In this document: one piece after another, positions 924 to 41,467 of the stretch
Position numbering within the stretch: position 1 is the first letter of the stretch
How the letters are laid out: every line of letters starts with the position of its first letter
Assembly (NCBI GenBank): GCA_029245525.1
Contig: JAQWPD010000059.1
Coordinates: 1-41,469, forward strand
Length of the DNA: 41,469 nucleotides
Direction: 5' to 3'
DNA from: Gammaproteobacteria bacterium
GTDB lineage: Bacteria > Pseudomonadota > Gammaproteobacteria > Steroidobacterales > GCA-2729495
Program-made: the position numbers and the translations under genes
Notes under the pieces: generated by a model
The model's input: only the letters and a program-made list of their open reading frames with translations
What the model was told of the DNA's origin: nothing
The model's database searches: none

Positions 924-2792
924 TTAACGGAAGACCGGTTGCACAGGAGCCTCAAGGCCGGTTTCAGCTTTGCAGCTGGCACGCAATTCGTCGATTGAAG
1001 GCCCTAAATTAAAGGTCTCAATCGGCGCTCGGCTGGAGCGCATCTCATCACGCAGAGCTGTGGTAGCAGCTTCATCAACCGCGCCCTCAATAATGACAAC
1101 ACCGTAGTCTTTAGCTCCCTCAACAGTGGCGAGATTGCGATTAACGTCAGCCAGAACCAGATCAGCATCCCGCTCAAGCGGGTCGCCCCAGCCGCCACCG
1201 CCCCAGGTATTAAAGTAGAGCAAGTCACCCACTTTAACATCGATGCCATCGCACTTAGATGGCAGCCACTCTTCAGAACCATCGGCCCGAACCAGCTTCT
1301 TGGTTGAGCGCGCGCCAACCTGACCACCGAGAACGCCCCATGGATACACGAGCCAGCGTTCATCATGAATACCGATATGGCCATCAGCCAGAAAGCGGTA
1401 GGCAACACTCAAACCATTGCCGCCGCGGTGCAAGCCAGCACCACCTGAATCAGGAATAGTTTCGTAGCGTTCAATACGCAGTGGGAAGTAAGACTCGATG
1501 AATTCGTTCGGTACATTGGTGAACCCGGGCCACAAAGAGTGACCATCAGGACCGTCACCGATCGGACGCCCCGGAATACCACCGAAGCCAATCTGGAACA
1601 ACTGAAACCACTCGCCGTCTTTGCCTTCACGATGGTCATAACCGGCATAGAACAGGTGAGGTGAATCCGAGAAGCCCGCTGCATTAAGCATCTGTTCAGG
1701 CGCACCTGAACCGAGCAAAGCACCCAAGATGTCAAAGATACGACCCAAGGCATGAGTACGCCCTGAAATCGCTGCAGGGAACTTAGGCTTTAACAGAGTC
1801 CCTTCTGGAATATTTACTTCAACCAGATCATAGAAACCGTCATTAAACACGATATGCGGATCAACCACATTAATGGTGAAGGAACCGAAGAACATCTTGA
1901 ACATATCTTCATTCAGATAGAAATTCACTGAGCTCTGAGCCTGAGGGTCGGTGCCGTCAAAATCGAAATGAGCAATGTCGCCTTCACGCCACATCGTGCA
2001 CTTAATTTTGTAAGGGCCCATACCCATGCCGTCATCACAGAGGTAGTCTTCAAAGACGCGCGGTTCTTCAGGAATGAAATTCTGAATAATAAACTTCATT
2101 GCCTTAAAGTTACGTTCCAGCATGATATCCATGGTACTGAAGAACGTATCGTCATCGAAACGTTCTGCAATTTCGACACAACGCTTAGCCGCAGTGTTGC
2201 AGGCAGCAACCAGAGCATTCAGGTCGAAACGGTTCCAGGTTGAAGTGCGCACGTTGTGCAGAATCAGCTCAAGGATATCGGATTGCAATACGCCTTTCTT
2301 GTACAGCTTGATTGGCGGAATGCGAACACCCTCCTGATAGATGTTTGTGGCCTCAATGGGGATAGAACCCGGCACCATTCCACCGTTATCAGACATGTGG
2401 CCAAACATTGCCGTCCATGCAATGTGACGGCCGTCTTTGAACACAGGTTTCAGCACCAGCCAATCCGGTAAGTGAGAAACAGCCGCATTACACATGTACG
2501 GATCGTTAGTCAGAATGATGTCGCCTTCTTCGATCTCCTCGTCGTAGGCTTCCATGAACGGGCCGATGAATGAGCCGAACTGACCCACAACCATCTTGCC
2601 GTCTTTGTTTGCAATCATCGGGAAGCAGTCACCCTGCTCACGAATACCCGGTGACATTGCCGTACGAAATAACACGGCGTCCATTTCGATGCGCGCGTTT
2701 TTCAGCGCGTTCTCGATGATGTCTACGGTTACGCCTTCAACCTCAATCTTTTTCAGAGGAGCGCTGTTGGTTTCAATTATTGATGCTGACAT
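924..2792 (-). CDS. hyuB: Hydantoinase B / oxoprolinase family subunit (HyuB)
   Basis: A 622-residue member of the HyuB/oxoprolinase-B/acetone-carboxylase-alpha superfamily. These proteins pair with a HyuA ATPase subunit to open lactam or hydantoin rings or to carboxylate ketones using ATP. Family features include the segment around LTNDPYMCNAAVSHLPD (about residue 95-110), GFGGIPGRPIGDGPDGHS, the glycine-rich SGGAGLHRGGNG, and the C-terminal GGGGWGDPLERD. It starts at ATG 2792 behind a good ribosome site (aggaga), 14 bases after the hyuA stop, so the two are cotranscribed. It is somewhat longer than the roughly 520-570 residues common for HyuB, owing to an extended C-terminus. The exact substrate cannot be read from the sequence: N-methylhydantoinase, 5-oxoprolinase-like and carboxylase roles are all possible. 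Confidence 0.93.
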   Translation of the reverse strand: MSASIIETNSAPLKKIEVEGVTVDIIENALKNARIEMDAVLFRTAMSPGIREQGDCFPMIANKDGKMVVGQFGSFIGPFMEAYDEEIEEGDIILTNDPYMCNAAVSHLPDWLVLKPVFKDGRHIAWTAMFGHMSDNGGMVPGSIPIEATNIYQEGVRIPPIKLYKKGVLQSDILELILHNVRTSTWNRFDLNALVAACNTAAKRCVEIAERFDDDTFFSTMDIMLERNFKAMKFIIQNFIPEEPRVFEDYLCDDGMGMGPYKIKCTMWREGDIAHFDFDGTDPQAQSSVNFYLNEDMFKMFFGSFTINVVDPHIVFNDGFYDLVEVNIPEGTLLKPKFPAAISGRTHALGRIFDILGALLGSGAPEQMLNAAGFSDSPHLFYAGYDHREGKDGEWFQLFQIGFGGIPGRPIGDGPDGHSLWPGFTNVPNEFIESYFPLRIERYETIPDSGGAGLHRGGNGLSVAYRFLADGHIGIHDERWLVYPWGVLGGQVGARSTKKLVRADGSEEWLPSKCDGIDVKVGDLLYFNTWGGGGWGDPLERDADLVLADVNRNLATVEGAKDYGVVIIEGAVDEAATTALRDEMRSSRAPIETFNLGPSIDELRASCKAETGLEAPVQPVFR

Positions 2793-2806
2793 TGAACTGT
2801 CTCCTC

Positions 2807-4867
2807 TTACTTAACAGGGTTGATTAAAAGGTTGCCAACTTTATCCACCGTGGCTTCATGCCCCGGCAAAATAACAGTCGTTGAATCCATTTCCATCACG
2901 ATGGATGGTCCCGGAACCAAAGTACCTTCGCTCAACTTGTTACGGTCATAAAGGTTGATGTCATACCACTCGCTTTCATAGCAGAACTTAGTGGCATGAA
3001 CGATGGTGTCTTCGAGCTTCGTGCCGACTGAACCAACAGTCGCAGCAGCCATCTCAGTTGGCTTCGCTTTAACAACAGCACGAATCATCAGAATCTCGTG
3101 ACCATCATCAAGCTTGAAGCTAAACAACTGATCATGTTCTGCGTCGAACTGTTCAGTTACAACAGCAATGCCCTTCTCTCTCAAGCCTTCCTCGGTGAAG
3201 TCCAGAGAAATCTCAAATGCCTGACCCGCATAACGCACATCGGCCTGATAAGACACAATGTGCTCTTCAACCGGAATGCCGTCATCAAGCAACGCCTGAC
3301 CAGCGCGGGTTTCGAGTGCCTTTAGGTCTTTAAGCAGATCGTCGGCAGACACATCTTCAGCCATCTTGATATAAGTACGGGTTGCTTCGTCCTGCACACT
3401 GGTTGTTGCGTCACCACGGGCACATAAAACGCCCGGGCCCGGAGGAATAATGACGGGCCATGCATCAGACAAAATGCCCATGGCATTGGCGTGCAAAGGA
3501 CCGGCACCGCCAAAGCAAACCAAACCGAAATCACGTGGGTCATAGCCCTGCTCAACCGACACCAGACGCAACGCGCCAAACATTGCTTCGTTGGCAACTT
3601 TAATAATGCCTTCCGCTGCATCAGTCAAACTGATACCCAATGCATCAGCAATGGTTTGAACCGCTTTCTCGGCAGCCTCTTTCGAGATCTCCATCTTACC
3701 GCCCAGCTGCACGTCTGAAGGCAGGTAGCCTAGAACCACGTTTGCATCACATACCGTCGGCTTGTCACCGCCTTTCATGTAAGCAGCCGGCCCAGGCACA
3801 GCGCCAGCAGACTCAGGGCCAACACGCAAGGCACCGGTGAGCTCCGGTACGAATGCGATAGAGCCACCGCCCGCACCAACCGTGCGGACATCGCATGAAG
3901 GTGCACGAACTTTAACGTCACCCACAAAGGTCTCGCGGCGAACACGTGCTTTAGAATTCTGAATCAAGGCAACGTCAGTAGACGTACCACCCATGTCGAA
4001 AGTCAGGATGTCGTCAAAGCCTGCGCGTGAGCAGAAGTAAATCGCACCTGCAACACCGCCGGCAGGACCGGACATCAGCATATTTACCGGAGAGTCTGCC
4101 GCAGAACGTGCAGACGCCAAACCACCATCAGAGCGCAACAGCGATAATGCGGTGTCTTCAGCCATACGCTCATTCAAAGCGCGCTGAAGGTTGTCTATAT
4201 ACAACTGCATTTCCGGACGAACATAAGAGTTCATCACTGTGGTTTCTGTCCGCTCGTATTCCTGCATTTCAGGAACAACCTCGCTGGATACAGAGACCGG
4301 GGTTTCGCCGAAGATTTCACGGGCAATAGCAGCCGCCTTCTCTTCGTGCTCGGCGTTGATATAGGAGTTAACGAAGCAGATAGTCAGCGCTTCCACTTCA
4401 CCGGTAGCAAACAGCGCCTTGAGGTCTTCGCGTAACTTGTCTTCATTAAGACCCCGGACAACTTTACCGTCAGCAGAAATTCGTTCTTCGGCGCCGATGG
4501 TCAGCTCCAGAGGCGCAAGCAAAGGCTCTTTGTTAAAAGTAACCCAACCGCCGAGACCACCCGGGCAGAACGAACGGGCAACCTGCAAAGTCTGCTCATA
4601 ACCGTCTGTGGTTACCAGGCCAACTTTAGAGCCTTTCTTCTGCAACACCGCATTGGTCGCGACGGTAGTACCGTGCATGACGCGTTTGATGTCAGTTGGA
4701 TCGATGCCAGACTCATCACAAATTCGGGCAACGCCGTTAAGCACACCGATAGACGAATCATCGGGAGTAGAAGGAACCTTAGCGGTAAAAGTCTTACCGG
4801 TATCCTCATTGATTAAGAGTAGATCGGTAAATGTACCCCCGACGTCTACACCAAGACGGTAGCTCAT
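2807..4867 (-). CDS. hyuA: Hydantoinase A / oxoprolinase family ATPase subunit (HyuA)
   Basis: A 686-residue HyuA-type subunit with the actin/hexokinase-fold ATPase signatures. The N-terminal phosphate loop is LGVDVGGTFTDLLLI (residues 5-19). A second motif, TFDMGGTSTDVALI, comes after the glycine-rich MSGPAGGVAGA. The conserved VRTVGAGGGSIA and CFGGAGPLHA segments follow. Family knowledge: HyuA supplies ATP-driven activation of a cyclic amide or ketone, with the second active site in HyuB. The start at ATG 4867 is preceded by gagaggaaag, a good ribosome site. It is transcribed after the HMG-CoA-lyase-like gene (150 bases upstream) and before hyuB. That context suggests a role in degrading a compound that ends as a branched dicarboxyl-CoA, which is inference. 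Confidence 0.94.
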   Translation of the reverse strand: MSYRLGVDVGGTFTDLLLINEDTGKTFTAKVPSTPDDSSIGVLNGVARICDESGIDPTDIKRVMHGTTVATNAVLQKKGSKVGLVTTDGYEQTLQVARSFCPGGLGGWVTFNKEPLLAPLELTIGAEERISADGKVVRGLNEDKLREDLKALFATGEVEALTICFVNSYINAEHEEKAAAIAREIFGETPVSVSSEVVPEMQEYERTETTVMNSYVRPEMQLYIDNLQRALNERMAEDTALSLLRSDGGLASARSAADSPVNMLMSGPAGGVAGAIYFCSRAGFDDILTFDMGGTSTDVALIQNSKARVRRETFVGDVKVRAPSCDVRTVGAGGGSIAFVPELTGALRVGPESAGAVPGPAAYMKGGDKPTVCDANVVLGYLPSDVQLGGKMEISKEAAEKAVQTIADALGISLTDAAEGIIKVANEAMFGALRLVSVEQGYDPRDFGLVCFGGAGPLHANAMGILSDAWPVIIPPGPGVLCARGDATTSVQDEATRTYIKMAEDVSADDLLKDLKALETRAGQALLDDGIPVEEHIVSYQADVRYAGQAFEISLDFTEEGLREKGIAVVTEQFDAEHDQLFSFKLDDGHEILMIRAVVKAKPTEMAAATVGSVGTKLEDTIVHATKFCYESEWYDINLYDRNKLSEGTLVPGPSIVMEMDSTTVILPGHEATVDKVGNLLINPVK

Positions 4868-9272: not shown

Positions 9273-9593
9273 CTAAAGGTCGTTATTAGCCACTTCAAGC
9301 AGCAAGCCGTCGAGCTCTTCAGTAACCTCAATCTGACAGGTCAGCCGGCTGTTTTCACGGCGGTCTGCTGCCGCGTCCAGCATGGCGTCTTCCATGTCAT
9401 CAAGTGGTGGCAACTTGCCCAGCCACTCAGGGGCGATGTAGGCGTGACAGGTGGCACAGGCGCAGGCCCCGCCACACTCGGCGACAATGCCTGAAACAGT
9501 GTTATCGATAGCGCCTTCCATGAGTGAATGACCGACAGGAACGTCAACTTCCTGTCGTTCGCCAGAACGCTGAACATAGATAATTTTTGGCAT
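9273..9593 (-). CDS. 2Fe-2S ferredoxin (adrenodoxin type)
   Basis: A 106-residue ferredoxin with the adrenodoxin-type ligand spacing C40-X5-C46-X2-C49-X36-C86, in the motif AECGGACACATCHAY and a distal LTCQIEV. An additional cysteine, C44, lies inside the loop and is not a usual ligand. It carries electrons to monooxygenases, P450s, reductases or Fe-S assembly. The start at ATG 9593 lies 5 bases after the stop of the TPR gene, with no independent promoter room, so it appears to be the last gene of the TonB2-type operon. That is an odd partner for a TonB system. A bilin-reductase-like gene at 28.9 kb would also need a ferredoxin, but no link is shown. Confidence 0.95.
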   Translation of the reverse strand: MPKIIYVQRSGERQEVDVPVGHSLMEGAIDNTVSGIVAECGGACACATCHAYIAPEWLGKLPPLDDMEDAMLDAAADRRENSRLTCQIEVTEELDGLLLEVANNDL

Positions 9594-27768: not shown

Positions 27769-28517
27769 TCCCCTGCCTCGACGTACGCGACGGTCAGGTC
27801 GTTAAAGGGGTGCAGTTCCGCAACCACGAGGTTGTGGGCGATATCCTGGCGCTTGCGGAACGCTATCGCGATGAAGGCGCCGATGAACTGGTCTTCTATG
27901 ACATCACCGCAAGCCCGGACGGACGCACGGTAGATCGTCAATGGATCAATCGGGTAGCCGAAATACTCGACATACCCTTCTCTGTTGCTGGCGGCATCAA
28001 AACGCTAAAAGATGCCGAAGAAGTGCTGAACTACGGTGCCGACAAAATCTCAATCAACAGCCCCGCCCTCGCTAACCCAGACCTGATCAATGAGCTGGTC
28101 AAACGCTTTGGTTCACAGTGCGTGGTTATCGGCATCGACAGTCGCGATGAAGACAATAGCTATCGTGTTTACCAGTACACCGGTGACCCTGAAAAAACCA
28201 AACACTCTGGAAGAATCACTGCCAACTGGGTGAAAGAAGTTCAGGAAAGAGGCGCTGGCGAGATTGTGCTTAACTGCATGAATCAGGACGGCGTCCGCAA
28301 CGGCTATGACTTGAAGCAGTTAAGTGAGATACGCAGTGTGTGCGATGTACCCCTCATTGCCTCTGGCGGTGCCGGTGAAATGCAGCACTTTGCCGATGTA
28401 TTTACTGAAGCCGATGCCGATGGTGGACTCGCTGCCAGCGTGTTTCATAAGGCCATTATCGACATCGGTGACCTTAAACGATTCTTAAGCACACAGAATG
28501 TCGAAATTCGAATTTAA
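27750..28517 (+). CDS. hisF: Imidazole glycerol phosphate synthase, cyclase subunit, with ATT start
   Basis: A 255-residue TIM-barrel cyclase that forms the imidazole ring from PRFAR and ammonia. The conserved N-terminus (initiator)[14 protein letters not shown], with the catalytic D11, begins at an ATT codon at 27750. The second catalytic aspartate is in VIGIDSRDE, and phosphate loops are VAGGIKT and ASGGAGEM. The frame has a stop at 27735-27737, and no standard start codon occurs before a GTG at 27810. That GTG would remove the first strand and D11. With the gaggag site 8 bases upstream, ATT is the best start. A sequencing error changing ATG to ATT is the main alternative. It overlaps hisA by 19 bases. 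Confidence 0.9.
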
Positions 28518-28545
28518 CGCTGCCCATGCAGCAAGAGAAGCCACA

Positions 28546-28833
28546 ATGAGTAATATTGATTTTTTAACCGAGCTTGAAACCATTATTGAAGAGCGCAGCA
28601 AGGTGTCGCCCGAAGAAAGCTACACGGCTCAACTGCGACACAAAGGCATCCCGTTTATCGCGCAAAAGGTGGGCGAAGAAGCCGTTGAGACTATTATCGA
28701 AGCGCTGCAAGGAAACCGGGAGCGACTCACCTCCGAATCCGCAGACCTGATTTATCACTTACTGGTATTGCTCAACAACAGCGACCTCTCACTGAGTGAC
28801 GTTGCAGCCGAACTTCAACGCCGCCATAGTTAA
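28546..28833 (+). CDS. hisE: Phosphoribosyl-ATP pyrophosphatase
   Basis: A 95-residue MazG-like all-helical pyrophosphohydrolase acting on PR-ATP. Motifs are SYTAQLRHKGIPFIAQKVGE, EEAVETIIEALQGN and SADLIYHLLVLL, which carry the acidic metal ligands. In enterobacteria this domain is the C-terminal half of HisIE. Here it stands alone and the HisI cyclohydrolase domain is absent from the operon. The start is ATG 28546 with agagaag upstream. The frame is open to 28498, but the extra residues overlap hisF and are unlike the family. Confidence 0.95.
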   Translation: MSNIDFLTELETIIEERSKVSPEESYTAQLRHKGIPFIAQKVGEEAVETIIEALQGNRERLTSESADLIYHLLVLLNNSDLSLSDVAAELQRRHS

Positions 28834-28872
28834 GGCAAGCTGCTCACCGAATCAGCATCAAGGATCACGAGC

Positions 28873-29559
28873 ATGGATCAGAACACACTGTTTGACCGCG
28901 TTATTGAAAGGATTGGCGCCGTTAGTCCGCTCAAAGCAATGCCGATTGAAGCTGAGCTCGCCAAACCAAAATCATTTCTAAAGCTGGTTGATGCCGAGCA
29001 CTATAACTGGTCGAGCAATGAGTTTCGCAAAGTATTTGGCATGCGCTTCCGCGTCAAAGTGCCGCCGCTTGATCAACTCAATATTATTGCTTATCCGGCA
29101 GCGGACAAGAACCTGCCTATTTTTATCTTCTTTTGCATGCTCACCAAGCGAAAGTGCATTGCGCATATTAACGTCAACCTGCCCTTCTCTGATGCTGCCT
29201 ATATTGACCAGCATGTAAAACCACTGGTCGACATCCGCAACACTTACGAGCCTTTCGAATGCAAAGATCGCTACCCCGCGTGGATGCAAAAGTTTCAGAA
29301 TGAATGCTCGATATATGGCCTATTTCCCCGTGATCGCTACGATGATATTGCCGATTGCGCGATACGCTATGCCGACGCTTATATGCAGCAAGTGGCAGCT
29401 GCAGAGGTAGAAACAAACCCCGAGCGTCTGGGCCAGCTAAAGGCCTTTCAGGATCAGTTCATCGATGATATACGCACACAGGATAAGGCTCAGGGCATGA
29501 TTGCAAAGATGATCGGGAAGAAAACCGCCCGCCGCATCTTCTACGAAGTTACAACGTAG
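28873..29559 (+). CDS. Ferredoxin-dependent bilin reductase-like protein
   Basis: A 228-residue protein I align from memory to the FDBR family (PcyA, PebA, PebS, HY2). Matching points: FRKVFGMRFRV; LDQLNIIAYP, where N70 aligns with the conserved Asn of PebA/HY2 (His88 of PcyA); NLPIF; a following hydrophobic strand ending IAHINV; YIDQHVKPLVDI; and the C-terminal DKAQGMIAKMIGKKTARR, typical of the family end, with D204 at the conserved C-terminal Asp. The central catalytic Asp of most FDBRs (Asp105 in PcyA) appears to be F87 here. Start ATG 28873 has aagga upstream and lies 39 bases after hisE, so it is probably in the his operon. No heme oxygenase is nearby. Activity may be altered or absent; an unrelated fold remains possible. 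Confidence 0.6.
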   Translation: MDQNTLFDRVIERIGAVSPLKAMPIEAELAKPKSFLKLVDAEHYNWSSNEFRKVFGMRFRVKVPPLDQLNIIAYPAADKNLPIFIFFCMLTKRKCIAHINVNLPFSDAAYIDQHVKPLVDIRNTYEPFECKDRYPAWMQKFQNECSIYGLFPRDRYDDIADCAIRYADAYMQQVAAAEVETNPERLGQLKAFQDQFIDDIRTQDKAQGMIAKMIGKKTARRIFYEVTT

Positions 29560-29596: not shown

Positions 29597-29633
29597 AAAA
29601 AAAGCCCGAAGCATCCGCTCCGGGCTTTCTTCA
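29597..29633. terminator. Bidirectional terminator between the his operon and lysC-lysA
   Basis: An 8-base stem aaagcccg (29601-29608) with cgggcttt (29621-29628), preceded by an A run and followed by a T-rich tail. It lies between two convergent units and can act in both directions. Confidence 0.88.
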
Positions 29634-29650: not shown

Positions 29651-32263
29651 CTAAACGATAAACTCAGCTGCGATACCCCGAAGATTGTAGTTTGAACCCA
29701 TAACATAGCCATACGCACCCGCATTGGCGATCAATAGCACATCACCCTCTTCTGTCGCAGGCAACAAGCGATCAACACCAAGACGGTCGCCGGTTTCACA
29801 AATAGGCCCTACAACCGAGACAACCTGACTCGGTGACTCATCCGCTTTACTGAGATTCGCGATCTCGTGATACGCACCATACAGTGACGGACGCAGCAAC
29901 GAGTTCATGCCCGTGCTGACCCCCACATAGCGAACCTCGCCTTTGCCTTTTGTCTGCGTAACCGTGGTTAACAGCACGCCGGAGTTGGCAACCACATAGC
30001 GCCCAGGCTCCATCCAAAGCTCCAGTTGTGGGAACTCGGCTTTAACCGCATCAAGCGACTCTGACACTGCAGCCATGTCCAACGGCGCCTGACCAGGCTT
30101 CTCTGGAATCCCTAAGCCACCACCCAAATCGAGGAATTTAACTGCAGGAAACACCTCCAGCGCCTCCACCAAATGACGTGCAACGTAGTGCCAGTTATCG
30201 GCCTGCAAAATCCCGCTACCGGTATGGGCGTGCAAACCGACAACCGCAGCACCAGCCGAATCAACCAGCTCACATGCTTCTTCCAACTCGAACATAGGAA
30301 TGCCAAATTTAGAATGCACACCCGCGGTGCGCACATGCTCGTGATGACCACGTCCCTGACCAGGGTCCAAACGCAATATCAGCTCTTTGCCGGCAAATAG
30401 CTCAGCCCAATGCCGCAACGGATGCAGGTTGTCCAGCGTGACCCGAACGCCCTGCTCCAAACCGAATGCATAATCTTCACGCGGCGCAAAGTTAGGCGTA
30501 AACAGTATCCGCTGAGGGTCAATATCCGGAAACAATTCAAGAACCCGGCGAATTTCGCCCGGTGAGACGCACTCAAAGTTCAAGCCACTCTCATGCACAA
30601 TCCGTAAAACCTCAGGATTGCTATTAGCTTTGATGGCATAAAATACGCGATCAACTGACTTCAAGCCCAACAAATTGGCGCAGGCCTGCTGAATTGACTC
30701 GCGATCATAAACATAGGCGGAAGAATGCTCTTGGGCCAAGCTAATTAACGCTTCACGCTTTTGCATCCACCAGGAAGGAGCCGCCTCTGGCAACACTTTC
30801 TGTGCCGCAGGACCTTCCTGAATCTCCTCCCAGGTCTCGCCGAATACTTTGTCCCTTGCCTCGGCTTGAACCAGCGTTGCATGAAAGCTCTTCACCAAAC
30901 GCACAGACTGCTCTTCATCCACCACAAAACTCAGATTCAGATCACTGGCGGCCTGACTCACCAAATGAATTTTATTTTCTTCAAAGACTTCCAGCGTCGG
31001 TCCGATCTCATGCAACAGCGCACGAATCTTCTGACCCACCAGACTGACTACAGCCACATTGGTTTGTATCTGCACACGACACAAACTGCTCAGCCGGTTG
31101 CGCAAACGCTCCAGCATGGCCTGATCCATTGAGTTCGCGCCGGGATCCAGCGTCACCGTAACGCTACTTTCCGATGTTGAAACAAGATCAATAGAAATTC
31201 CTAAGTCACTGAAAACCCTGAATGCATCGGCAAGAAAACCGACCTGATGCCACATTCCCAACGTTTCCATCGACACCAGCGTGATACCACGACGGTGCGA
31301 CACCGCTTTCACCCTTGCAGAGTCATCACCGGCATCGCGAGTGATGAGGGTACCGGGCTCTTCCGGACGATGGGTGCAACGAACCCACAAGGGTATATCG
31401 TAGCTGCGCACTGGAGAAATCGAGCGAGGGTGCAAAACAGATCCCCCGGTAGAGGCTATCTCCTGCGCCTCTTCATAGCGCAGTGCTTTCAGCAAACGGG
31501 CGCCGGAGACGACCCGCGGGTCAGCGCTGAACATGCCCGGCACGTCCGTCCAGATTTCTAAACGCTCGGCCTCCAGCTTTGCCGCAAAATAAGCCGCGGA
31601 GGTATCCGACCCACCGCGCCCTAACAGCACGCTTTCACCCAGCTCATTGCGGGCAATAAAGCCCTGAGTCAGAACGATGTCACCGTTACGAGAAAAATCA
31701 GCCTGCAAGTCAATATCCGGGGCATAGGCACAGGTCGCCGACAAATAGCCCGCACGTTCAGCAACATTGCTTGGCTCAGTACTGGTAAGCACATCACGGG
31801 CATCAACCCAAACCACGGGCAAGCCCTGCTGTTGCAAATAGGCAGCACCCAGAGCAGTGGTCATCAGTTCGCCCATGGACATGACCTTTACCTGCATACG
31901 GTCACTCACTTCGCGCACTAAGCGGACACCACTCACCAGCTGATCCAGCTCTTCCAGGTAGCCACCCAACAAGGACTGACTGTCGAGACCCAATGAATCA
32001 CCCAGCCCGAGATAACGCGCCTTGAGCTCGGCCAGCAGCTCAGCATGCTCTCCACGAGTGGCCAAGCCAAGCAGCGCTTCTAGCTGATTGGAGGTGCCAC
32101 GAATAGCGGAGTGCACAATGACCGGCTGCACACCTTCAGCAACGCGCTGACGCACCAGGTCCGCAATAATTGCCCAGCTTTCAGCGGTAGCGACACTGGT
32201 GCCGCCAAACTTCATTACCACCCAAGGCACGGCAACCTCACTGTTCTGATTTTTTGCGTTCAT
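29651..32263 (-). CDS. lysC-lysA: Bifunctional aspartate kinase / diaminopimelate decarboxylase
   Basis: About 870 residues, a fusion of the first and last enzymes of lysine synthesis. The aspartokinase part (about 1-465) begins WVVMKFGGTSVATAESW and carries GRGGSDTSAAYFAAKLEAE and two ACT domains (near LISMETL-type and VSLVGQKIRAL segments). The decarboxylase part (about 490-870) has the PLP lysine in VFYAIKANSNPEVLRI, then HAHTGSGI, EPGRYVVANSGVL and ICETGDRL. This fusion is known from Xanthomonas relatives and other gammaproteobacteria. I prefer ATG 32263; a GTG at 32308 would start only 13 bases after a terminator. A leader ORF and terminator precede it, suggesting lysine-responsive control. 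Confidence 0.95.
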   Translation of the reverse strand: MNAKNQNSEVAVPWVVMKFGGTSVATAESWAIIADLVRQRVAEGVQPVIVHSAIRGTSNQLEALLGLATRGEHAELLAELKARYLGLGDSLGLDSQSLLGGYLEELDQLVSGVRLVREVSDRMQVKVMSMGELMTTALGAAYLQQQGLPVVWVDARDVLTSTEPSNVAERAGYLSATCAYAPDIDLQADFSRNGDIVLTQGFIARNELGESVLLGRGGSDTSAAYFAAKLEAERLEIWTDVPGMFSADPRVVSGARLLKALRYEEAQEIASTGGSVLHPRSISPVRSYDIPLWVRCTHRPEEPGTLITRDAGDDSARVKAVSHRRGITLVSMETLGMWHQVGFLADAFRVFSDLGISIDLVSTSESSVTVTLDPGANSMDQAMLERLRNRLSSLCRVQIQTNVAVVSLVGQKIRALLHEIGPTLEVFEENKIHLVSQAASDLNLSFVVDEEQSVRLVKSFHATLVQAEARDKVFGETWEEIQEGPAAQKVLPEAAPSWWMQKREALISLAQEHSSAYVYDRESIQQACANLLGLKSVDRVFYAIKANSNPEVLRIVHESGLNFECVSPGEIRRVLELFPDIDPQRILFTPNFAPREDYAFGLEQGVRVTLDNLHPLRHWAELFAGKELILRLDPGQGRGHHEHVRTAGVHSKFGIPMFELEEACELVDSAGAAVVGLHAHTGSGILQADNWHYVARHLVEALEVFPAVKFLDLGGGLGIPEKPGQAPLDMAAVSESLDAVKAEFPQLELWMEPGRYVVANSGVLLTTVTQTKGKGEVRYVGVSTGMNSLLRPSLYGAYHEIANLSKADESPSQVVSVVGPICETGDRLGVDRLLPATEEGDVLLIANAGAYGYVMGSNYNLRGIAAEFIV

Positions 32264-32321
32264 AAGCCTTGCAAAGCCTTTGTTCTGAATATCTGTACCA
32301 GCCGACACTTCAAGCCGCCGA

Positions 32322-39612: not shown

Positions 39613-40745
39613 TGCCTATAACAGAAGATGATGCCATGAGCGATGACGAGCAAATTTTTCATGTGTCCAACAGCATGGAATTATTCGGGCGGCTAATCAC
39701 CAATCATCCGGAGTTCTGGCGCAAAGTCGGCAATCTGGAAACCAAGCTGCTTACCGACCAACTTGAGAACAGCGAACTTAAAAGCCCCGTCTATGTCACC
39801 GGCCTCGCTCGCTCAGGCAGCACAATACTGCTCGAGACACTGGCACAAATTCCGGGTGTCATTTCGCATCGTTACAAAGACTTCCCCCCTGTGTACACAC
39901 CCTATTGGTGGAACTGGTTCATGAAGCAGGCCGGGGCTGGAGCAATCAAGCCGCAGGAGCGCGCGCACCGGGATGGCGTTATGGTGACGCCCGACAGCCC
40001 CGAAGCTATTGAAGAAGTTATCTGGATGGGCGCGTTTAAACACTTGCACAATCCGGCTGTATCCAACGCCCTAAGCGCAGAAGCGGCTGACCCTGAGTTT
40101 GACCGGTTTTATCGGGAACATTTAAAAAAGCTTCTGCTAAGTCGTGGCGGAAATCGCTACCTGTCTAAAGGCAACTACTTGGTGACACGGCTGCAATACA
40201 TCTTAAACATGCTGCCGGACGCCCGCTTCGTTATACCGGTTCGACACCCCTTCGGACACATTGCATCACTGATGAAACAACATGACTTGTTCAGCCGCGG
40301 CCAACAACACAACCTGCGCGCACGCGAGCATTTAAAACGGGTGGGGCACCTTGAGTTTGGTCTGGATCGGACGCCGATAAACACCGGTGACACCAGCACC
40401 ACCCAATCAATTCTGAACTTGTGGGACAGCGGTGAAGAAGTGCGTGGCTGGGCACGTTACTGGAATCAGATTTATGGGTTCCTAACAGATGAGATGACAG
40501 AGAACCCGCTGGTAGGCAATGCGTCAAAAATCATTCGCTTCGAAGATTTATGTGCCACGCCCGCAGACACCATCATGGCTGTGCTCACGCATTGCAATTA
40601 CCCGGCTGACCCTGACTTTATCAGCAGCACTGCAGCAGGCATTCACGCGCCCTCCTACTACAAGTCGACATTCACCGCACAGGATGAAGCCATCATTCTG
40701 GAGGAAACCGAGAGCGCTCGCGAGAAGCTGGGCTACAGCAACTAA
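39612..40745 (+). CDS. PAPS-dependent sulfotransferase family protein
   Basis: 377 residues. The 5'-phosphosulfate-binding loop is YVTGLARSGSTILLETLAQ (61-79). The 3'-phosphate-binding segment is RFVIPVRHPFGHIASLMKQ (about 206-224). A later WARYWNQIYGF and the C-terminal RFEDLCATPADTIMAVL fit the sulfotransferase fold. It would transfer sulfate from PAPS to a hydroxyl or amine on a lipid, glycan or small molecule; the acceptor is unknown. It is coupled to the upstream membrane protein, hinting at an envelope substrate. Its end overlaps by four bases with the convergent LLM gene. An internal ATG at 39636 is an alternative start. Confidence 0.87.
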   Translation: MPITEDDAMSDDEQIFHVSNSMELFGRLITNHPEFWRKVGNLETKLLTDQLENSELKSPVYVTGLARSGSTILLETLAQIPGVISHRYKDFPPVYTPYWWNWFMKQAGAGAIKPQERAHRDGVMVTPDSPEAIEEVIWMGAFKHLHNPAVSNALSAEAADPEFDRFYREHLKKLLLSRGGNRYLSKGNYLVTRLQYILNMLPDARFVIPVRHPFGHIASLMKQHDLFSRGQQHNLRAREHLKRVGHLEFGLDRTPINTGDTSTTQSILNLWDSGEEVRGWARYWNQIYGFLTDEMTENPLVGNASKIIRFEDLCATPADTIMAVLTHCNYPADPDFISSTAAGIHAPSYYKSTFTAQDEAIILEETESAREKLGYSN

Positions 40746-41467
40746 CGCAAAGCCGGCAGCACACGTTCGCCAATCATTCTGATCGAGTCTTCCGGCTGGT
40801 CATACAGGCGAATACCAAACTCGGTAAGACCCGCTGCCTTAAACGCCAGCAACTGATCAATAAAGCCCTCGACATCATCGGGGGTGCCGGTAAATGTGAG
40901 CTCCTTAACCAGTTTATTGGCTAAGGGCTCAGGCACACCGGGAAACTCCGCCGTATTGTTGATGTAGGCGTTTGCGAACACGTCAAACTTGTCTTCCACC
41001 AAAGCGCATTCTTCATCGCTTAAAAATGTCGAGATATACCAACGCTCCAACATACCGCGAACCCAGAGTTTGCGGCGCGCTTCATCCAACGCAGCGGCTT
41101 TATCTGACTTTACATGCCAGGAATACAGGTTACTGATACGGAAGTCTTGCGGATCACGGCCTTGCAGCTGAAGCGAGTCTTTGAGCACCGACATGGTTTC
41201 AGGCATGCGTGCGAGCGTTACGTCACTGAGCATGACACCGTCGGCGACATCCGCTGCCAGAGCCAGCATCTTGGGCTTGGATGCGCCCACATAAATTAGC
41301 GGGGCTTGGTCAGGCGCCCATGCTGGGTAATAGCCGCTCACTTCAAACACATCACCGTGGTAGTTCACCAGACTGCCAGTTGCGGCAGCACGGAGCATCT
41401 CGACACATTCACGCACCCCGCGAAGCATCTTCGGGTGCATAACGCGCCTGCCGGTCTTCAGGCCCAT
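40742..41467 (-). CDS. LLM class flavin/F420-dependent oxidoreductase (partial)
   Basis: The C-terminal 241 residues of a bacterial-luciferase-like protein; the gene runs off the right edge. Seen are PAWAPDQAPLIYVGASKPKM and ADGVMLSDVTLARM, followed by FTGTPDDVEGFIDQLLAFK near the end, as in tetrahydromethanopterin-reductase-like LLM proteins. Family length is about 330 residues, so roughly 90-100 N-terminal residues are missing; the Met at 41467 is not the true start. FMN versus F420 use cannot be decided. It is convergent with, and overlaps, the sulfotransferase gene by four bases. Confidence 0.88.
   Translation of the reverse strand: MGLKTGRRVMHPKMLRGVRECVEMLRAAATGSLVNYHGDVFEVSGYYPAWAPDQAPLIYVGASKPKMLALAADVADGVMLSDVTLARMPETMSVLKDSLQLQGRDPQDFRISNLYSWHVKSDKAAALDEARRKLWVRGMLERWYISTFLSDEECALVEDKFDVFANAYINNTAEFPGVPEPLANKLVKELTFTGTPDDVEGFIDQLLAFKAAGLTEFGIRLYDQPEDSIRMIGERVLPALR

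Follow-up and report, generated by a model that had tools for sequence, protein, structure and literature searches.

The enzymes of the ferredoxin-dependent bilin reductase (FDBR)/RCCR superfamily whose activities are known act on tetrapyrroles, and they do so mostly in or for phototrophs. What use, then, does an uncultured and apparently non-photosynthetic heterotroph among the Gammaproteobacteria make of such a protein, and why does its gene stand behind the last gene of a histidine operon? The question is raised by a gene, here called gene A, in a stretch of 41,469 nucleotides (hereafter the window; Table 1). A sequence-only reading had compared its product with FDBRs, and had considered a divergent FDBR, a pseudo-enzyme or a binder of bilin or heme.

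Table 1. Gene A, its key codons and its immediate surroundings in the window
Feature	Position	Strand	Basis
hisE, last gene of the histidine operon, upstream neighbour	28498..28833	+	ORF and his gene order
Spacer between hisE and gene A, 39 bp	28834..28872	+	Sequence
Gene A, FDBR-superfamily gene (subfamily A), 228 aa	28873..29559	+	Pfam PF05996, AF2 fold, dN/dS
Codon of Asn70 (position of PcyA His88 / Peb Asn88)	29080..29082	+	Alignment with PcyA, PebA, PebB and GtPEBB
Codon of Phe87 (where PcyA has the central catalytic Asp105)	29131..29133	+	Alignment
Codon of Asp204 (PcyA Asp220 / PebS Asp206 / GtPEBB Asp219)	29482..29484	+	Alignment
Hairpin between gene A and the convergent lysC-lysA gene	29601..29628	.	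RNA folding

Family membership, fold and active site

Gene A is a complete open reading frame with an ATG start, 39 bp past the hisE stop on the plus strand. It is intact and under strong purifying selection: a dN/dS of 0.09 against the gene of a congener (locus L034, 88% identical) indicates that it is maintained by selection and is not a decaying gene. That the encoded protein belongs to the FDBR/RCCR superfamily is nearly certain. The Pfam profile PF05996 (Fe_bilin_red) matches it with an E-value of 2.8e-16 and 60.3 bits, well over the cut-off of 31, and the match pairs residues 8-225 with profile positions 2-224 of 228, which bears out the alignment along most of the protein claimed from the sequence. 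The NCBIfam models for PebA, PebB and PcyA match at 7.5e-9 to 3.5e-6, far under their equivalog cut-offs, and RCC_reductase (PF06405) gave no match at E-values up to 5. When a profile built from 19 relatives was searched against the PDB, it found GtPEBB (3e-14), PebA (9e-6) and HY2 (4e-5), as well as PcyA.

The AlphaFold (AF2) model of the protein (pLDDT 89, pTM 0.88) contains the alpha/beta/alpha sandwich of PcyA, PebA, PebB and HY2 (Z 23-26), and it superposes on PebB, HY2, PebA, PcyA and RCCR with Z-scores of 22-26. Its best structural match is 6qx6 (GtPEBB; Z 26.4, 2.1 Å over 227 residues), followed by HY2 (25.3), PebA (25.1), PcyA (23-24) and RCCR (about 22); further down the list are coproporphyrinogen oxidases (Z 13-18), and unrelated rows reach at most 5. 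GtPEBB is thus the closest solved structure by both profile and fold. The sequence-only reading had proposed both the profile search and the structural comparison, and would have given up its assignment on a missing profile hit together with an unlike fold; the matches to PF05996 and to the FDBR fold leave that assignment standing.

The protein is nevertheless not a canonical FDBR. Aligned with PcyA, it has Phe55 for His74, Met57 for Glu76, Asn70 for His88, Phe87 for Asp105 and Asp204 for Asp220, so that the PcyA triad of Glu76, His88 and Asp105 is absent altogether; the Arg-Lys pair ahead of His74 is kept. The conserved Asn, the LPIF strand and the C-terminal Asp noticed in the sequence align as claimed, as does the Phe in place of the central Asp, and Asn70, Phe87 and Asp204 are invariant in all 19 aligned members of subfamily A. 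At the positions of the RCCR pair Glu154/Asp291, the gene A protein has Phe87 and Asp204.

A missing central Asp need not abolish activity, since HY2 (phytochromobilin synthase) has Asn there, with Asp116 as a substitute at the His88 position (PMC6755814), and AtRCCR has Glu. HY2 thus resembles the gene A protein in fold and in its missing central Asp, whereas gene A has Asn where HY2 has Asp116; because this substitute has no counterpart in the gene A protein, activity on biliverdin is uncertain. Like the gene A protein, GtPEBB and PebB carry Asn at the position of PcyA His88 and retain the helix Asp (GtPEBB Asp219), but they have Asp99 where gene A has Phe87; identity is only 15%, and the window genome yields no PF01126 match. 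RCCR (PF06405) is similar in fold, and the three other superfamily members of the window genome fall on its side, but the gene A protein has neither a match to RCC_reductase nor an equivalent of Glu154.

Phylogeny and distribution

In a tree of the superfamily, subfamily A lies outside the clade formed by PcyA, the Peb enzymes and HY2 (support 97/90), and it did so again in a second tree from which the longest rows had been removed. Subfamilies A and B join the FDBRs outside the clade of known enzymes, and subfamilies C, D and E join AtRCCR (support 99/96); deep branches are long and may affect these joins, and the sequence set did not include pre-1 proteins. The trees thus place the gene A protein on what appears to be a deep branch of its own on the FDBR side. 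The term divergent FDBR holds for superfamily and fold.

The distribution of the family is narrow. Of 40 genomes from the window's family, 24 have a PF05996 match, as does one of 59 others from the order; among 369 genomes sampled from the class there were three, two of them in the window's own family, and among 398 sampled from the phylum the window genome was the only one. A census of 84,980 species genomes with exact peptide patterns placed subfamily A at 19 loci, a lower bound, and every one of them is in a metagenome-assembled genome. A scan of viral_contigs found no relatives of subfamily A, and a structure search of viral proteins returned only FDBR-like phage proteins at E < 0.001.

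Subfamily B, the second group on the FDBR side (L016:1399-2328 and L030:1441-2331; also L057, L059, L061, L063, L069 and L070), has Gln at the Asp105 position. Two full-length members were scanned and gave a weak C-terminal match to PCP_red (PF08369), a domain of light-independent protochlorophyllide reductase (E 0.0011 for L030 and 0.098 for L016).

Genomic company of gene A and its paralogues

The place of gene A behind hisE had seemed unexplained. The his genes precede it, hisE last, and the order is the same in the congener L034, where the spacer measures 86 bp against 39 bp in the window; the linkage is absent from the other loci with upstream sequence. A promoter scan of the interval between hisE and gene A gave nothing above chance. 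At eight loci, spread over three other genera, a gene for a type II DMSO-reductase-like molybdoenzyme of about 930 aa precedes gene A by 8-60 bp; this enzyme also scores as an ethylbenzene dehydrogenase alpha subunit. At L045 gene A stands 70 bp past an FdhF/YdeP-type molybdoenzyme, and at L048 it follows a Rieske oxygenase gene after 316 bp. UbiD and nitrilase-like genes also occur in several of these clusters, and L051 holds subfamilies A and D, the molybdoenzyme, UbiD and two nitrilase-like genes within one 20-kb stretch. In genus g9, inspection by eye identified MoaD-, MoaE- and MobA-like genes a few kilobases downstream. The window genome carries the orthologous molybdoenzyme on another contig (C84, locus L054), without gene A. 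As the gene so often follows molybdoenzyme genes in other genera, its place behind hisE is most simply read as a genus-specific relocation. The neighbours of gene A vary across loci (hisE, molybdoenzyme, membrane protein).

Downstream, gene A converges with a gene for a fusion of aspartate kinase and diaminopimelate decarboxylase (29651-32308, minus strand; 1192 bits, above the equivalog cut-off). The T-tract of the hairpin between the two lies mainly on the minus strand according to RNA folding, and the hairpin is absent from the list produced by a consensus scan. Elsewhere in the window, a 2Fe-2S ferredoxin gene (9273-9593, minus strand) encodes a possible electron donor, and a luciferase-like monooxygenase gene (40742-41467, minus strand), interrupted by the contig end, belongs to the same cluster as those adjoining FDBR/RCCR-like genes elsewhere. 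A HyuA/HyuB-type pair (924-4867, minus strand), nearest to the alpha and beta subunits of caprolactamase with 525 and 209 bits, under the equivalog cut-offs, is possibly an ATP-dependent lactam or hydantoin hydrolase; CoA-transferase- and HMG-CoA-lyase-like genes adjoin it.

Four genes of the superfamily are present in the window genome: gene A and L053:3964-4752, L054:2999-3766 and L055:7688-8521. The L053 protein (contig C15), of subfamily C, scores 25.9 bits on PF05996 and 18 bits on RCC_reductase; the L054 protein (contig C84), of subfamily D, is weak by sequence, but its fold confirms it as a member (RCCR Z 20.3, PebA 20.0); and the L055 protein (contig C112), of subfamily E, scores 23.6 bits on RCC_reductase, just under the cut-off. 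None of the four has a central Asp of the canonical type; subfamily C has Glu at the Asp105 position and keeps the Glu/Asp pair of AtRCCR.

The surroundings of these paralogues are of a degradation type or luciferase-like. The subfamily C gene adjoins an MFS gene and has within 10 kb a Rieske oxygenase, a luciferase-like enzyme, an isochorismatase-like hydrolase and two PuuE-like proteins of the polysaccharide-deacetylase family. The Rieske neighbour scores on the VanA_C, KshA_C and methylsterol monooxygenase models. The subfamily D gene is accompanied by UbiD, two nitrilase-like enzymes, an amidohydrolase, an esterase, a PuuE-like protein and the molybdoenzyme, and the subfamily E gene is flanked by two luciferase-like genes. 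Of ten luciferase-like genes in the genome, three lie within 10 kb of the four loci against 0.29 expected (p 0.003, a post hoc comparison). A cyclic imidase function for the PuuE-like pair would be a guess from family resemblance only. Both L129 and L054 combine a subfamily D gene with UbiD-family decarboxylases and a pair of nitrilase-like genes. Among relatives, the RCCR-like subfamily E2 (18 loci, L110-L127) has a conserved neighbourhood: a 2Fe-2S ferredoxin gene occurs within 6 kb in 16 of the loci, and many also have response regulator, histidine kinase, ExbD/TonB-type, radical SAM and methyltransferase-like genes.

The partners expected of known systems were not found. In the window genome, which is 98% complete, heme oxygenase (PF01126), phytochrome (PF00360, PHY domain) and V4R proteins gave no match in searches whose positive controls matched; the PHY domain is missing from the window's family, and PaO-domain proteins from both the window genome and 60 relatives (again with positive controls). 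Staygreen gave no match in a search without a positive control. The earlier remark that neither heme oxygenase nor phytochrome is nearby thus holds genome-wide by PF01126 and PF00360, the proposed look for a heme oxygenase elsewhere having been made. With these matches missing, nothing supports a role in making chromophores or a chlorophyll pathway of the plant type: we reject photoreceptor use on the PHY result and plant-type breakdown on those for PaO and Staygreen.

Candidate functions

The explanation that we tentatively favour is that gene A encodes a divergent ferredoxin-dependent reductase that serves to break down an open-chain tetrapyrrole or some similar substrate; ferredoxin dependence, substrate class and catabolic role are all features that we infer. 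The alpha/beta/alpha sandwich would bind an elongated conjugated substrate, reduced [2Fe-2S] ferredoxin would give electrons singly, and Asp204 with its neighbours would act as the proton source in place of the missing central Asp. The role of the protein is probably catabolic: an open-chain tetrapyrrole or similar conjugated molecule would be imported from outside and reduced, and the gene A product would not supply chromophore to photoreceptors. What speaks for a catabolic reductase is membership by profile and fold, purifying selection and the degradation-type neighbours of subfamily A and its paralogues; we also counted in its favour the ferredoxin genes near E2 genes (16/18) and the RCCR-type Glu/Asp pair of subfamily C. 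Against it we counted that both central acids of known FDBRs are missing (Asn70, Phe87), that Staygreen, the PaO domain and PF01126 are unmatched, and that the neighbours of gene A are variable.

A further point against it is the broad substrate range of the neighbouring enzyme families, which would suit the degradation of steroids or aromatic compounds equally well. The main rival to a catabolic tetrapyrrole reductase is a reductase of the same fold, ferredoxin-dependent or other, that handles a non-tetrapyrrole intermediate in the degradation of an aromatic, steroid or terpenoid compound by a pathway that the molybdoenzyme, Rieske and UbiD enzymes run. We consider this unlikely, yet several observations are in line with it: the scores of the type II DMSO-reductase-like partner on ethylbenzene dehydrogenase and of the Rieske neighbour on VanA_C, KshA_C and methylsterol monooxygenase models, the Phe for the central Asp in every member, consistent with a changed substrate, and the missing PF01126 heme oxygenase. 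Fold size and layout are kept, however, and superfamily enzymes of known activity use tetrapyrroles (PMC10151467).

It is improbable that the protein is non-catalytic, either as a tetrapyrrole-binding pseudo-enzyme or as an assembly or electron-transfer partner of molybdoenzymes. An invariant Phe at a catalytic position, a gene directly behind two unrelated molybdoenzyme families and the MoaD-, MoaE- and MobA-like genes of g9 would suit such a role, but the protein retains Asn70, Asp204 and the Arg-Lys pair, the subfamily C paralogues still have an acid pair, and gene and molybdoenzyme are apart in the window's genus. The pseudo-enzyme of the sequence-only reading has become less likely than stated, given the dN/dS of 0.09, the retention of Asn70 and Asp204 and the validated relatives without the Asp; in its favour, neither central position holds an Asp, unlike in HY2.

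A pre-PcyA-type or otherwise canonical FDBR, which would provide a photoreceptor or bilin globin with reduced bilin, is more improbable still. The pre-1 pre-PcyA proteins, from heterotrophic hosts that include gamma-proteobacteria, likewise have none of Glu76, His88 and Asp105, and one of them weakly reduced biliverdin (PMC10151467). According to Rockwell et al. (2023; PMC10151467), their genes typically cluster with one for heme oxygenase, two for V4R proteins and those for an Fe-S protein and a globin; this cluster is missing around gene A, PF01126, V4R and PHY are unmatched in the window genome, and subfamily A lies outside the PcyA, Peb and HY2 clade in a tree that contained no pre-1 sequence and thus may conceal a link to pre-1. 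A role in histidine synthesis or its regulation, suggested by the common strand, the 39 bp after hisE and the same linkage in L034, is scarcely credible and was rejected, since the linkage is limited to the window's genus and the L034 spacer is longer.

That a heterotroph should have an FDBR relative is not in itself novel, because pre-PcyA enzymes of heterotrophs are known and also reduce biliverdin (PMC10151467). The present case differs in the missing cluster of heme oxygenase, V4R and globin genes, the Phe throughout at the central position and the separate branch, together with four superfamily members in one genome and their degradation-type neighbours; in the open-licence literature, we found no description of degradation-type clusters like these that include relatives of FDBR or RCCR. 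Four members without the canonical Asp and with degradation-type neighbours, in an apparent heterotroph that yields no PF01126 match, suggest a different use of the fold, and hint that such enzymes may break down pigments or similar molecules instead of making light-sensing ones. It is conceivable, if rather unlikely, that this uncultured gammaproteobacterial lineage degrades open-chain tetrapyrroles, whether bilins or products of chlorophyll breakdown, by a catabolic route that is as yet undescribed. Several reductases of the FDBR/RCCR fold, the gene A protein among them, would then work alongside Rieske, luciferase-like and molybdenum oxidoreductases, as well as enzymes that hydrolyse amides and imides. 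Were bilins or chlorophyll catabolites the substrates, these genes would be candidates for the breakdown of such compounds by bacteria in the sea; otherwise, the superfamily would here be acting on something other than tetrapyrroles.

In another gammaproteobacterial family, two FDBR/RCCR-like genes (1563-2462 and 8631-9461 of L142) share one cluster. The identification of L142:5073-5852 as a maleate isomerase was weakened, as it scores as EutA/arylmalonate decarboxylase; such EutA/arylmalonate-decarboxylase-like genes stand in this cluster with nitrilase-, acyl-CoA-dehydrogenase-, MFS- and aldehyde-dehydrogenase-like genes.
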